Positions 44,092 through 53,402 of a stretch of DNA of 64,000 bases are shown in pieces. This DNA comes from Maribacter antarcticus DSM 21422. GTDB taxonomy: Bacteria; Bacteroidota; Bacteroidia; Flavobacteriales; Flavobacteriaceae. The number at the start of each line of letters is the position of its first letter. Positions within the stretch are counted from its first letter, which is position 1. The notes beneath the pieces are model-generated. The model did not search any database and had not been told where the DNA came from. It saw nothing but the letters and a program-made list of their open reading frames with translations. The position numbers were made by a program, and so were the translations under genes. The stretch is taken from assembly GCF_000621125.1 (NCBI RefSeq), contig NZ_JHZC01000005.1, positions 62,001 to 126,000 of the forward strand, in the 5' to 3' direction.

Positions 44092-44910
44092 ATGATGGAC
44101 AAATTACCAAAAATAGCCTTACCGGCTATATTTATTTTTATCATTTTAGTTATTGGAATATCAAAATCAACTGTTACTATAGACTCAGGTCAGGCCGGGG
44201 TTTTGTATAAAACTTTTGGAGGTGGTGTAGTAACGGATCAGCCGCCAATGGGCGAGGGTTTTCATCTAGTAGCGCCATGGAATAGAGTAACTATTTATGA
44301 GGTACGACAACAAGAAGTGCTTGAAAGTATGAATGTATTGTCAAGTAATGGTTTGGATATCAAATTGGAAGCATCTGCATGGTTTGAACCAATACGTAAT
44401 GATTTAGGTAAATTGCACCAAGAGAAGGGTACAGAGTATATCCAACGTGTATTACTACCTACAATTCGGTCAGCAGCAAGAAGTGTTGTTGGGCGTTATA
44501 CACCAGAACAATTGTACTCGAGTAAAAGGGATGCAATCCAACAAGAGATTTTCGACGAAACTCAAAAAATAGTTGAAGGACAATACATTCAATTAAATGA
44601 AATACTGGTACGGGATGTTACATTACCCCCAACGATAAAGGAAGCAATAGAGCGTAAACTGAAGCAAGAGCAGGAGTCTTTAGAATATGAATTTAGATTA
44701 GTTACCGCTAAAAAAGAAGCTGAAAAAGTAACAATTGAAGCACAAGGTAAAGCAGATGCAAATAGAATTTTGAGCGCGTCATTGACCGATAAGATTCTTC
44801 AGGATAAAGGTATCGATGCTACGTTAGAATTAGCAAAATCGCCAAACTCTAAAGTAGTTATTGTAGGCAGTGGAGACTCTGGCTTACCATTGATTTTAGG
44901 AAACAACTAA
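44092..44910 (+). CDS. Prohibitin-family (SPFH) membrane protein
   Basis: A 272-residue protein with one N-terminal membrane anchor (about 10-27) and an SPFH/Band 7 domain (about 30-200; GQAGVLYKTFGGGV, then LSSNGLDIKLEASAWFEP and SAARSVVGRYTPEQLYSSKRD). An Ala/Glu-rich coiled coil follows (about 185-235, KKEAEKVTIEAQGKADANRIL). It is closest to prohibitins, which form large ring assemblies in the membrane and steady other proteins. Last gene of the ybjQ-VWA run. Confidence 0.9.
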   Translation: MMDKLPKIALPAIFIFIILVIGISKSTVTIDSGQAGVLYKTFGGGVVTDQPPMGEGFHLVAPWNRVTIYEVRQQEVLESMNVLSSNGLDIKLEASAWFEPIRNDLGKLHQEKGTEYIQRVLLPTIRSAARSVVGRYTPEQLYSSKRDAIQQEIFDETQKIVEGQYIQLNEILVRDVTLPPTIKEAIERKLKQEQESLEYEFRLVTAKKEAEKVTIEAQGKADANRILSASLTDKILQDKGIDATLELAKSPNSKVVIVGSGDSGLPLILGNN

Positions 44911-44950
44911 TAAACGTTTAGAATTATTTTGTTTCATTTTAAACTTTTGT

Positions 44951-44981
44951 TTTGTGAAATCGAAAATACCGTTTACTTTTA
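44951..44981 (+). promoter_or_regulatory. Promoter of the histidine operon
   Basis: -33 element TTTG (44951-44954), exactly 19 nt, then TACTTTTA (44974-44981), which matches TAnnTTTG except for the last base. It predicts transcription from about 44988, one base before the leader peptide's ATG. The -33/-7 spacing is the Bacteroidota optimum. Confidence 0.65.
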
Positions 44982-44988
44982 CATAGTA

Positions 44989-45033
44989 ATGCAAAATAGA
45001 ACTATACATCATCATTTCCACACATACGCTTAG
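44989..45033 (+). CDS. hisL: His operon leader peptide (14 residues, four His)
   Basis: An ATG at 44989 opens MQNRTIHHHFHTYA followed by TAG. Four of 14 codons are His (three in a row, CAT CAT CAT, then CAC), an extreme enrichment. It lies between the his promoter and a strong terminator that precedes hisG by 37 bp. This is the classical arrangement of a transcription-attenuating leader: when charged His-tRNA is scarce the ribosome stalls at the His codons and the downstream terminator should not form. The leader would be nearly leaderless itself. Confidence 0.85.
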   Translation: MQNRTIHHHFHTYA

Positions 45034-45044
45034 GCGAGGTAGGA

Positions 45045-45066
45045 ATGTATTGTAGTAGTACAACAT
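45045..45066 (+). promoter_or_regulatory. Hairpin in the his leader between peptide and terminator
   Basis: ATGTATTGTA can pair with TACAACAT (5 bp, a 2-nt bulge, then 3 bp) around a 4-nt loop. It lies just after the leader peptide stop and before the attenuator stem, the place of a pause or competing hairpin. I could not identify an unambiguous antiterminator that pairs with the terminator's 5' arm. Confidence 0.4.
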
Positions 45067-45072
45067 ATTTAA

Positions 45073-45107
45073 AAACCCGTTTGAGCAATCAAACGGGTTT
45101 TGTTTTT
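45073..45107 (+). terminator. Attenuator terminator of the his operon
   Basis: A perfect 12-bp stem (AAACCCGTTTGA / TCAAACGGGTTT) with a GCAA tetraloop, followed by TGTTTTT. It lies 39 bp after the leader peptide's stop and ends 37 bp before hisG, with no other gene between, so it must regulate entry into the operon. Confidence 0.85.
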
Positions 45108-45143
45108 CGACCTGTTTTGGTTGTTCAACATCAATAAAGACAA

Positions 45144-46001
45144 ATGACAAGAATTAGAATTGCAATTCAGAAATCAGGAAGGTTGAACGAAGATTCCCTT
45201 CAAATACTTAAAGACTGTGGTATCTCTATAGATAATGGGAAAGATCAGCTAAAAGCGTCTAGTAGAAACTTTCCTATGGAAGTATTTTATTTACGTAACG
45301 GTGATATTCCGCAATACCTTAGAGATGGCGTGGTAGATATTGCCATCATAGGTGAAAATGTATTGATAGAGAAGGGAACGGATATTACTATTGTAGAAAA
45401 GTTGGGATTTTCTAAGTGTAAAGTATCTTTGGCCGTGCCAAAATCTTTTAAATACAACTCTGTGAAAGATTTTGAAGGAAAACGCATTGCCACATCCTAT
45501 CCAAATACTGTAAAAAACTATTTGGCTAGAAAAGGAGTAAACGTAGACCTGCACATTATTAGTGGTTCTGTAGAAATTGCACCTAATATTGGTTTGGCGG
45601 ATGGTATTTGCGACATTGTTTCTAGTGGTAGTACGTTGTTCAGGAATAATTTAAAGGAGGTGGAGGTAATGCTTAAAAGTGAAGCCGTTTTAGCAGTTTC
45701 CCCATCTATTTCTGAGGAACAAAAAGCAATACTACGTAAATTAAAATTTAGGATTCAATCGGTTTTAAGAGCACGGCAGTCAAAATATGTATTGTTGAAT
45801 GCACCAAATGATAAGCTTAATGAGATTCTAGCGCTCTTACCAGGAATGAGAAGCCCCACGGTACTTCCGCTGGCAGATAAGGGATGGAGTTCTGTGCATA
45901 CGGTAATTAACAAAGATACCTTTTGGGAAGTGATAGATGAATTAAAACAAGCTGGTGCAGAAGGTATTTTGGTTTGCCCAATTGAGAAGATGGTTTTGTA
46001 A
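45144..46001 (+). CDS. hisG: ATP phosphoribosyltransferase (long form)
   Basis: The first and feedback-controlled step of histidine synthesis: ATP plus PRPP gives phosphoribosyl-ATP. The 285-residue protein is the long HisG form. The catalytic bilobed domain (about 1-205) carries RIAIQKSGRLNEDS, GENVLIEKG and the PRPP loop GISGS-like ADGICDIVSSGSTL. The C-terminal ACT-like regulatory domain (about 210-285) is where histidine binds. Being the long form it should not need HisZ, and none is present. First gene of the operon, behind the leader/attenuator. Confidence 0.96.
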   Translation: MTRIRIAIQKSGRLNEDSLQILKDCGISIDNGKDQLKASSRNFPMEVFYLRNGDIPQYLRDGVVDIAIIGENVLIEKGTDITIVEKLGFSKCKVSLAVPKSFKYNSVKDFEGKRIATSYPNTVKNYLARKGVNVDLHIISGSVEIAPNIGLADGICDIVSSGSTLFRNNLKEVEVMLKSEAVLAVSPSISEEQKAILRKLKFRIQSVLRARQSKYVLLNAPNDKLNEILALLPGMRSPTVLPLADKGWSSVHTVINKDTFWEVIDELKQAGAEGILVCPIEKMVL

Positions 46002-49594: not shown

Positions 49595-50176
49595 ATGAAA
49601 ATAGTAATTATTAATTACGGAGCAGGAAACATCCAGAGTATCAAGTTCGCCATTAAAAGGTTGGGGCATACCGCTATTCTGAGTAATGATGTGGAAGAAA
49701 TTCGAAATGCAGATAGAGTCATATTTCCAGGTGTTGGAGAGGCGAGTAGCGCCATGGCTAAACTTTGGGAAAGTGGTTTGCACGATTTGATTCCAAGCTT
49801 AAAACAGCCGGTACTAGGAATTTGCCTAGGTATGCAATTGATGTGTAATGCATCTGAAGAAGGTGGGACAGAGGGGTTAGGTATTTTTGATGTAAATGTG
49901 CTTAAGTTTGGTACTACTGTAAAAGTCCCACAAATAGGCTGGAATCAAATAACCAATTTAAAATCTCAATTGTTTAAAGGGATTAATGAAAAAGAGCATA
50001 TTTATTTGGTACATAGTTTCTATGCGCCAGTTTGCGCAGAGACTATTGCTGAATGTGAGTATGGTTCAAGATACAGTGCTGCGTTACAAAAGGATAATTT
50101 TTATGCTACTCAGTTTCACCCAGAAAAAAGTAGTACGGTTGGTGAAAATATCTTATTCAATTTTTTAAAAATGTAA
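49595..50176 (+). CDS. hisH: Imidazole glycerol phosphate synthase, glutaminase subunit
   Basis: The glutaminase that feeds ammonia to HisF. A class I amidotransferase of 193 residues with NYGAGNIQSIKFAIKRLGH at the start, the nucleophile Cys77 in GICLGMQLM, and the His-Glu pair in QFHPEKSS near the end. The oxyanion region PGVGEA is present. Its last base is the first base of the next ATG, so the GNAT gene is translationally coupled to it. Confidence 0.96.
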   Translation: MKIVIINYGAGNIQSIKFAIKRLGHTAILSNDVEEIRNADRVIFPGVGEASSAMAKLWESGLHDLIPSLKQPVLGICLGMQLMCNASEEGGTEGLGIFDVNVLKFGTTVKVPQIGWNQITNLKSQLFKGINEKEHIYLVHSFYAPVCAETIAECEYGSRYSAALQKDNFYATQFHPEKSSTVGENILFNFLKM

Positions 50177-50598
50177 TGGAAAATAATTTTTTCATCTCAA
50201 ACGATAAACGTTTATTGAATGTATATGCCATAAAACATTTCATAGCTGATGAATATTGGAGTGATGGCAGAATCGTGGAAGATGTTGAAAAGACAATATT
50301 GAATTCCTATTGTTTTGGAATGTATACCCTAGAAAATGAACAGGTTGGTTTTGCAAGGGTGGTGACAGATTACATATATTTTGGATATTTTATGGATTTC
50401 ATCATATTTACAAAGTTTCAAGGTAAAGGATATGGTAAAAAACTAGTAGCGCATATGCTTAAGGATGATGTTATAAAAAGCCTTAAAACAGTAGCCTTAA
50501 AAACCAAAGATGCCCATAGTTTTTACCAACGTTTTGGATTTAAAAAAATTGGAGATTCACCTATATGGATGAGCATAGATAAACAAAATTTACGTTAA
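50176..50598 (+). CDS. GNAT-family acetyltransferase inside the his operon
   Basis: A 140-residue acetyltransferase. The acetyl-CoA loop is FQGKGYGKKLVAHML (about residues 76-95 region) with the preceding strand MDFIIF, and the C-terminal HSFYQRFGFKKIG motif is typical. The substrate is unknown. It is inserted between hisH and hisA, overlapping hisH by 1 bp and spaced 3 bp from hisA, so it is transcribed with the pathway. It is not a known pathway enzyme; it may be a passenger or may acetylate an intermediate or a protein. Confidence 0.88.
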   Translation: MENNFFISNDKRLLNVYAIKHFIADEYWSDGRIVEDVEKTILNSYCFGMYTLENEQVGFARVVTDYIYFGYFMDFIIFTKFQGKGYGKKLVAHMLKDDVIKSLKTVALKTKDAHSFYQRFGFKKIGDSPIWMSIDKQNLR

Positions 50599-50601
50599 AA
50601 A

Positions 50602-51339
50602 ATGAGAATAATACCCGCCATAGATATCATAGACGGTAAATGTGTTCGACTCTCAAAAGGAGATTATGATACCAAGAAAATATATAACGAGCATCCTTTA
50701 GAAGTGGCCAAGGAGTTTGAAGCAAGCGGAATTCAGTTTTTACATTTAGTAGATTTGGATGGAGCAAAATCTAAACACATTATAAACCACAGGGTGCTTG
50801 AACAGATTGCCTCTCAGACCCAATTAAAAATTGATTTTGGGGGTGGTTTAAAGACAGATGAAGATTTACGTATCGCTTTTGAAAGTGGCGCAAGTCAGAT
50901 TACTGGAGGCAGTATTGCAGTAAAGGACCCAGAAATATTTTTAGGTTGGATTGAAAAACATGGAGCTGATAGAATTATCTTAGGTGCCGATGCTTTGGAT
51001 GAAAAAGTGGCGGTTTCCGGATGGCAAGAGGAGTCTAAAGAGGAACTAATTCCGTTTATTCAATCATATCAAGCCAAAGGTATTCAATATGTGATTTGTA
51101 CCGATATTAGCAAGGACGGCATGTTAGAAGGACCTTCATTTGATTTATACCAAAAAATAATGACTAGAATAGCTGGTGAACAGCCACTTAAACTCATTGC
51201 ATCTGGGGGAATAGCTACGTTTGATGAATTGCCCAAACTTGCCGAATTAGGTTGTGAAGGTACCATTATTGGTAAAGCAATCTATGAGAATAGAATTAGC
51301 CTAAAACAACTGGAAACGTACATTTTAAGCCATGGATAA
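50602..51339 (+). CDS. hisA: ProFAR isomerase (HisA)
   Basis: The isomerase that turns 5'-ProFAR to PRFAR. A 245-residue half-barrel-repeat TIM barrel. The N-terminal catalytic Asp is in [14 protein letters not shown] (Asp8), and the second one in [15 protein letters not shown] (about residue 130s). Phosphate sites are [12 protein letters not shown] and [13 protein letters not shown]. It overlaps the DinB-like gene by 8 bp. Confidence 0.96.
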
Positions 51340-51853
51340 AGAAGAGCAGCTTATTGAAGAATTGGTTAAAAATACACTTTATCGGATGGATGAAAGTACC
51401 CGTATGATTAATAGGAGCTTGGATGAATTAACCGATGAAGAAATCTGGCAAAAACCTAACGCTTCCCTAGCTAGTATAGCAAATTTGATTTTGCATTTGA
51501 GTGGAAATATTTCTCAATATATCATTTCGTCGCTTGGCGAAACAGAGGATAAACGAAATAGGGATGGGGAATTTATAGCAATAAGTGGACTCACAAAAAT
51601 AGAGCTACTTCAAACACTGAATGCTACTGTTAATACGGCCAAACGGGTCATATTTGATGCTACAATAGATCAATTTTTGAAGATGAGGCAAGTTCAAGGT
51701 TTTTCCTTTTCGGGAGTAGGGGTCGTTTTACATGCTGTAGAACACTATTCCTATCACACCGGTCAAATTGCATTTTGGGTAAAGCAGTTGAAAAATAAAG
51801 ATTTAGGATTTTATGAGGGAATGGATTTGAATACCAAAAATAATAAAGCATAA
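51332..51853 (+). CDS. DinB-like (DUF1572-type) protein inside the his operon
   Basis: A 173-residue four-helix-bundle protein with the metal-binding His pattern of the DinB superfamily: [12 protein letters not shown] (His about 55) and [16 protein letters not shown] (about residues 133-147). The family includes metal-dependent thiol S-transferases but most members have no known role. Its ATG overlaps hisA by 8 bp and its last base is the first base of hisF's ATG, so it is a fixed part of the operon. A second, different DinB protein lies at 25.2 kb. Confidence 0.85.
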
Positions 51854-52709: not shown

Positions 52710-53402
52710 ATGAAGAAAATAGGATTAATAGGCGGTATCACATGGCAATCCACACAATTGTATTATCAATTATTAAATACTAAAGTAGCCGAAACTTTGG
52801 GTAATCAACATTCATGCGAGTGTATTATTGAATCGGTTGATTTTGCAGAAATATCTAAAAAACAGGCTAATGGTGAATGGGATGTGTTACATGCTCAAAT
52901 GACGGATATCGCGTTACGACTGCAAAACGCAGGTGCAGAAATCATTCTAATCTGTGCCAATACAATGCATCTTAGTGTTCCAACGATGAAAAGAAGTATC
53001 TCGATTCCTTTGTTACACATAGCGGAAGTAGCCGGTAAGGCAGTACAAAAAAAAGGATACCAAAAAGTGTTACTGCTAGGTACAAAATATACGATGGAAT
53101 TGGATTTTTACAAAGACATCCTCAAAAATCAATTTGGCATTGAAATCTTAATACCTAATAAAGAGGATAGGGATGTGGTACATAAGGTAATATATTCCGA
53201 GCTCGCTAAGGGTGTTATAAAGGTTGAATCTAAGAAGTATTATTTAGAGATTATTAAAAAAGCCGAAAAAGAAGGTGCACAAGCTGTAATTTTAGGCTGC
53301 ACCGAAATACCTTTATTAATTCGAAAAGAGGACTGTGATATTGCGGTTATCGATACGACCAAAGAACATGCTTATGCTGCTGTTAAGTTTGCTTTAGCCT
53401 AG
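52710..53402 (+). CDS. Aspartate/glutamate racemase-family protein
   Basis: A 230-residue cofactor-independent racemase of the Asp/Glu family: GLIGGITWQSTQLYYQLLN at the start, catalytic Cys in ICANTMHLS (about residue 82) and the second Cys in VILGCTEIPLLI (about residue 193). Both Cys are intact, so it can be active. Substrate is probably L/D-aspartate by motif, but members vary. It sits in the his operon between hisF and hisIE, with longer gaps (101 and 207 bp) than the other genes, so it may also be separately transcribed. Confidence 0.88.
   Translation: MKKIGLIGGITWQSTQLYYQLLNTKVAETLGNQHSCECIIESVDFAEISKKQANGEWDVLHAQMTDIALRLQNAGAEIILICANTMHLSVPTMKRSISIPLLHIAEVAGKAVQKKGYQKVLLLGTKYTMELDFYKDILKNQFGIEILIPNKEDRDVVHKVIYSELAKGVIKVESKKYYLEIIKKAEKEGAQAVILGCTEIPLLIRKEDCDIAVIDTTKEHAYAAVKFALA

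Follow-up and report, generated by a model that had tools for sequence, protein, structure and literature searches.

What regulates the his operon of Maribacter antarcticus DSM 21422, and what is the role of the short, His-codon-rich reading frame in front of hisG? With a probability of about 90%, sequence comparison and modelled folding point to a ribosome-mediated transcription attenuator. Attenuation of this type, as in proteobacterial his operons, had been proposed in the original prediction for this DNA, and is now strongly supported by the conservation of the His codons, by the complementarity between antiterminator and terminator, and by footprint-aware folding. The ORF, the terminator and the antiterminator, as well as their conservation and geometry, were obtained from the sequence or by computation.

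The his operon and its promoter

The window, i.e., the whole 64-kb stretch of DNA analysed, carries hisG on its forward strand at 45144..46001, with the ATG at 45144. It is the first gene of the regulated operon, which extends on the same strand to 54233 and has the order hisG-D-C-B-H, GNAT gene, hisA, DUF1572/DinB gene, hisF, racemase-like gene, hisIE. The names hisC, hisH, hisA and hisF were assigned from protein family and operon order. Three genes inside the operon are not his genes, namely the GNAT acetyltransferase (50176-50598), the DUF1572/DinB-family gene (51332-51853) and the Asp/Glu-racemase-family gene (52710-53402). The HisG of the window has 95% similarity to a Maribacter MAG, which places the window near Maribacter.

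Upstream of the operon, a Bacteroidota-type promoter is located at 44951..44981 (forward strand), with TTTG at 44951-44954, a 19-nt spacer and the -7 box TACTTTTA at 44974-44981. Both the sequence and the promoter scan bear out this promoter as originally described. A generic sigma-70 scan gave zero sites at the leader promoter, as expected in Bacteroidota.

Conservation of the leader ORF

The leader peptide ORF, MQNRTIHHHFHTYA followed by a stop, occupies 44989..45033 on the forward strand, from the ATG at 44989 to the TAG at 45031-45033, and is conserved in relatives. As predicted, it has 14 codons, of which four encode His (45007, 45010, 45013 and 45019), three of them consecutively. Five short ATG ORFs in the 64-kb window reach three His in six codons, and the his leader ORF is the only one to reach four.

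A HisG search gave a match in 166 of 199 Flavobacteriaceae genomes, from which 150 upstream regions were taken. Two were left out, one taken from the wrong side (L150) and one at a contig edge (L082), leaving 148 usable loci. Before hisG, each of the 148 carries a short ORF with two or more His within six codons, starting with ATG in 145 loci and with GTG in L019, L025 and L087; the later analyses used a set of 147 family loci, without L087. At least three His in six codons were found in 143 of the 148 loci, versus 1.3% of dinucleotide shuffles (400-nt hisG upstream regions, 20 shuffles for each of the 148 loci). The shuffle rates for this threshold were 1.3% and 2.9%, the former being that of the Flavobacteriaceae loci. 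A common form of the leader peptide in the family is HHH(H)-F-x-x-C-x-Q-A-R/S/K, ending at the stop. Among the 80 best HisG matches, which we refer to as close relatives (Maribacter, Zobellia, Arenibacter, Cellulophaga, Kriegella, Muricauda and others), all 80 combine a His leader with a CCCG(T/C)TTGA terminator arm. The conservation of the His codons in relatives, suggested earlier as a check, thus speaks in favor of the prediction.

In a further search, HisG was found in 213 of 247 genomes in all. Of 60 loci examined from these HisG-bearing genomes outside Flavobacteriaceae, 54 have a leader ORF with at least three His in six codons. A terminator accompanies 38 of these 54 leaders. The remaining 16 are without an intrinsic terminator in our scan (L196, L198, L199, L201, L202, L213-L219, L169, L174, L178 and L181), L216 and L218 being very His-rich among them. 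It is possible that these terminator-free leaders have a different output, either Rho-dependent or translational.

Terminator and antiterminator

The intrinsic terminator lies at 45072..45107 on the forward strand, with a stem formed by 45072-45084 and 45089-45101, a GCAA tetraloop, and a T tract reaching to 45107. The tetraloop and T tract are as predicted; the perfect stem is 13 bp long, instead of 12 bp. Its signature occurs as an exact pattern once in the organism's own genome. Of 200 dinucleotide shuffles of the 175-nt leader, 199 fold less well than the real sequence (z -3.15). A terminator was found in 147/147 Flavobacteriaceae loci, its stem is 99.7% canonical (146 loci), and 8 of 11 stem columns show two-sided changes.

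The original prediction saw no clear antiterminator pairing with the terminator's 5' arm. This was wrong, because the end of the leader ORF (45028-45040) pairs with the 5' arm of the terminator (45075-45086), an arm that terminator and antiterminator have in common. The antiterminator 5' arm, GCTTAGGCG(A)GGT, on the forward strand at 45028..45040, overlaps the ORF end and forms 12 pairs in the fold; in the window it reads GCTTAGGCGAGGT, with the pairs arranged around one unpaired A. In most relatives the same arm consists of sense codons for Q-A-R/S; the conserved ORF end and the terminator arm, GCTCAAGCGAGG and CCCGTTTGAGC respectively, are complementary to each other. An inner stem at 45043..45070 (45043-45048 with 45065-45070, and 45050-45054 with 45059-45063) was recognized by folding and by comparing own with swapped or shuffled partners. 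Together, antiterminator and inner stem fold at -22.3 kcal/mol in the pre-terminator transcript of the window.

Across 147 loci, the ORF end pairs with the terminator arm at a mean of -13.5 kcal/mol, versus -6.8 kcal/mol for shuffled ORF ends. The real pairing energy was not reached by any of 50 shuffles in 100 loci, and at least one shuffle reached it in 47. With a slightly wider pairing window, own partners in Flavobacteriaceae gave -13.6, partners swapped between loci -12.5, and shuffled ones -6.5 kcal/mol. In the antiterminator columns of 143 loci, 82.6% of the cells are canonical, compared to a maximum of 80.8% in 300 partner permutations and to 41% or less in slid registers. Two-sided changes numbered 64, versus a permutation mean of 22 and maximum of 59, although these permutations are not tree-aware. 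The outermost pair, canonical in only 97 of 143 loci, contributed 54 of these changes, and the core only ten, being too conserved to vary much. Within the helix (45076-45079 with 45036-45039 in the window), an A stands opposite a C in 134 of 143 loci; perhaps this column is a bulge that tunes helix stability.

Outside Flavobacteriaceae the arms differ in sequence. Here, own partners paired at -14.0, swapped at -9.4 and shuffled at -8.5 kcal/mol, and in 34 of 38 loci the own pairing was stronger than the mean of its swaps. All 50 shuffles were beaten in 19 of the 38, and in the other 19 at least one shuffle equalled the real energy. In one distant Bacteroidota genome (L161), shuffled sequences did as well as the real antiterminator.

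The end of the leader ORF may be under selection as RNA. A TAG replaces the CAG of most relatives in Kriegella aquimaris, Maribacter stanieri and Maribacter sp. 1_MG-2023, as well as in the window. Through this change the leader peptide loses its last three residues, and a C-G pair of the antiterminator helix becomes U-G. Since the helix is kept and the peptide shortened, the comparison is in keeping with selection on the RNA and not on the tail of the peptide.

Ribosome position and RNA structure

It counts against the attenuator that the terminator always wins, and the antiterminator is absent, when the full leader is folded, so that the switch must be kinetic. The antiterminator appears in folds of the pre-terminator transcript or under a ribosome mask. 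Transcripts reaching as far as the 3' arm of the terminator were folded with an assumed ribosome footprint, in which all bases were hidden as far as 12 nt downstream of the first base in the A-site codon. With a modelled ribosome on the first, second or third His codon, the antiterminator formed in 143/147, 144/147 and 139/142 loci, on the last His codon in 120/147, and with an initiating ribosome in 129/147. With the ribosome at the stop codon it formed in 0/147. Without a ribosome, it was seen in 60/147 loci when folded from the ATG, and in 75/147 with the predicted 5' UTR. The 80 close relatives (70 distinct leaders) gave the antiterminator in 80, 80 and 79/79 for the first three His codons, in none at the stop, and in 47 without a ribosome. 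Ribosome position thus selects the structure, as judged by modelled footprints only.

With the ribosome moved codon by codon, the switch point came out 6-8 codons upstream of the stop (36, 114 and 144 of 147 loci, respectively, for 6, 7 and 8 codons). His codons are commonest 7 codons before the stop (56/147) and 9-12 codons before it (130 and 129 of 147, 131 and 78 of 146). The His cluster sits just upstream of the computed switch point.

A putative protector hairpin can form between the region around the first His codon and the stretch after the stop. Over the 147 loci its pairing energy was -8.1 for own, -6.25 for swapped, -5.7 for shuffled and -0.85 kcal/mol for control partners, and all 30 shuffles were beaten in 41 loci. 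It also speaks against the attenuator that in the window the hairpin is weak (-5.5 kcal/mol) and the antiterminator forms without a ribosome, unlike in the textbook trp case.

We infer the start site, translation, termination and response to histidine as follows. Transcription would start 2-3 nt before the leader ATG, and the mRNA on which the ribosome loads would be practically leaderless. If His-tRNA is sufficient, the ribosome would reach the stop codon and cover 45028-45040, leaving the 5' arm of the terminator free, so that the terminator could form and transcription would stop near 45103-45107. Under His-tRNA shortage, the ribosome would stall on the His codons and 45028-45040 would be exposed. 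This segment could then pair with 45075-45086 while the 3' arm of the terminator has yet to be transcribed, and the polymerase would read into hisG.

Leaders of other amino-acid operons

The trp leader of the same genome (L152), MRKTNNIWWWNNLRQHS followed by a stop, starts 5 nt after TATCTTTG. A Trp-rich leader was present in 30 of the 30 trp loci looked at (the organism's own and 29 of 54 genomes with a match), with 4-8 nt between box and ATG in 13 of them. The pheA leader (L156), MTKQYFWNSFYFYFFFKRGTGLL followed by a stop, contains AACGGGACT, which is complementary to the terminator arm AGTCCCGTT. By their sequences, the trp leader appears to be, and the phe leader probably is, designed like the his leader. 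The ORF upstream of ilvD (L155), MKVYKNRINRVIIISDTE, was considered as well and is only a weak candidate leader. The scan of the upstream regions of the other loci taken from this genome found zero combinations of a terminator with a leader.

Start of the leader transcript

Many promoters of F. johnsoniae have 4-5 nt between the -7 box and the start (PMC6847099), and in F. psychrophilum the -7 box spans -12 to -5 (PMC9723704). Applied to the window, the published spacing predicts a start at 44986 or 44987 on the forward strand and a 5' UTR of 2-3 nt (44986..44988). The original prediction placed the start about one base before the ATG; its near-leaderless character is retained, the distance is not.

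The leader ATG follows the -7 box by 7 nt in 64 and by 8 nt in 16 of the 80 close relatives, with 65 different spacers, whereas a box at this distance occurred in 83 of 4000 shuffles. This spacing implies a 5' UTR of 2-4 nt in the close relatives. Among the 64 with a 7-nt spacer, a pyrimidine is found at -1 in 61 and a purine at +1 in 61, which is the usual signature of a transcription start. The window itself has an A at -1 and a G at +1.

The picture is more varied across the 147 family loci, with 4-9 nt between box and ATG in 49, 10-15 nt in 13, 16-20 nt in 72, and no box in 13. Repeating the scan without the -33 tie-break gave 50, 12 and 71, with one locus below 4 nt and 13 without a box. 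A box was also found in 18% of shuffles. The scan included NAnnTTTG variants and covered only 28 nt upstream of the ATG, so that longer 5' UTRs were counted among the 13 loci with no box. The distances fall into two groups, mainly of 7-8 nt and of 17-19 nt, which differ by about one helical turn. In L161, the His leader ATG (426-428) immediately follows a tRNA-Phe gene (352-425); judging from this arrangement, a leaderless mRNA for the leader peptide could be set free when the 3' end of the tRNA is processed.

A link between UTR length and protector hairpin is suggested by the family loci. The hairpin is rarer with a short UTR (15/49 vs 43/72), and the antiterminator without a ribosome is commoner (33/49 vs 29/72; Fisher p 0.005, uncorrected for relatedness). 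A tentative hypothesis, for which we see clearly worse than even odds, is that the clade of Maribacter, Zobellia and Muricauda regulates his (and trp) by leader peptides on mRNAs that are virtually leaderless. A ribosome loading at once onto the 5' end as it emerges would replace a pause or protector hairpin in synchronizing ribosome and polymerase, and the antiterminator would be written in the last codons of the ORF, with the peptide tail kept for the RNA, not for its amino acids. The basis of fast loading is the above correlation, weak and confounded by relatedness, and the hypothesis leans on the idea of "synchronized starts" (PMC1183508).

Alternatively, the same attenuator could act on a leadered mRNA. 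Such a transcript would come from another promoter, or from polymerases reading through from the Band-7 gene upstream, and nothing about it would be leaderless. The 72 of 147 loci with a 16-20 nt spacing indicate that elsewhere a longer 5' UTR is compatible with the attenuator. Furthermore, the start here is a predicted one, and leaderless mRNAs are uncommon in F. psychrophilum (5.5%; PMC9723704). Against this stand the fixed distance of exactly 7 or 8 nt in 80/80 close relatives despite their 65 spacers, as well as the 5-nt distance of the trp leader in the same genome. We thus regard a leadered mRNA as unlikely in the window.

Relation to known regulatory systems

A leader binding a small molecule or protein, such as a T-box, a riboswitch or a PyrR-like element, with the short ORF being incidental, is a very improbable explanation. 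Rfam has no match within the window at the gathering threshold. Weak matches below it were obtained on the forward strand for PyrR (31.4 bits, threshold 54) and the L10 leader (25.1 bits, threshold 44), while the His_leader (RF00514) and T-box models were not matched at gathering, and the 15 matches that 44900-45200 gave with E up to 10 included neither of them. Moreover, it is the His codons and their frame that are conserved, and the switch point follows ribosome geometry, as attenuation by a translating ribosome would have it. The chance that a random His run stands next to the terminator of the upstream gene is negligible: the terminator lies about 160 nt past that gene and one terminator-like site versus a shuffle mean of 0.4 (sd 0.7) is unremarkable as a count alone, but conservation in the family and phylum and the complementarity of ORF end and terminator arm refute this explanation.

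The proteobacterial his attenuator (RF00514) shares with the element described here a His-codon leader peptide, alternative terminator and antiterminator, and a downstream hisG (PMC9413887). It differs in that here the antiterminator 5' arm lies inside the end of the leader ORF, and the leader is compact (about 120 nt), with a predicted near-leaderless start. The his attenuators of Firmicutes are similar in having three to five consecutive His codons, a terminator and an antiterminator, and no RF00514 match; they are reported from 17 Firmicutes genomes, a separate lineage, with no Bacteroidota listed in the part of that work considered here (PMC9413887). The trpL of Sinorhizobium meliloti likewise encodes a 14-aa attenuator leader peptide, and its RNA begins at the ATG (PMC7298713), yet this is an Alphaproteobacterium with Trp codons, and the near-leaderless start in the window is only inferred. 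The ilvBNC attenuator of the Actinobacterium Corynebacterium glutamicum follows the same three-hairpin logic of terminator, antiterminator and antiantiterminator (PMC11857589), whereas the antiantiterminator (protector) of the window is weak.

Closest to our results is the F. psychrophilum transcriptome (PMC9723704), which reports 5' elements of hisG and pheA conserved in other genera and, in front of amino-acid operons of flavobacteria, "strong clues" to attenuation by leader peptides. Its Flavobacteriaceae hisG element is very probably the same as ours, and the basic attenuation idea is therefore not new. The His codons, antiterminator, start spacing and phylum-wide spread are not described in the sections of that paper considered here. 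Judging from titles and passages in the literature searched, leader-peptide attenuation in Bacteroidota is touched on only by PMC9723704 and PMC7366714; PMC4833913 cites Lopatovskaya et al. 2010. The antiterminator-in-ORF anatomy, the spread in Bacteroidota and the fixed near-leaderless start were not found in that search. As the hisG leader matches no family in the Rfam library searched, an RNA family entry would be justified. Some attenuators in Bacteroidetes/Chlorobi were reportedly predicted by Vitreschak et al. in 2004.

Biological relevance

For a phylum in which promoters and translation starts are not like those of E. coli, the his leader provides a compact model of how amino-acid attenuation works at the level of sequence. 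With almost no 5' UTR for the ribosome to land on, it would also be a natural test of how the ribosome keeps pace with the polymerase. Within one genome, the same logic appears to be shared by his, trp and probably phe.
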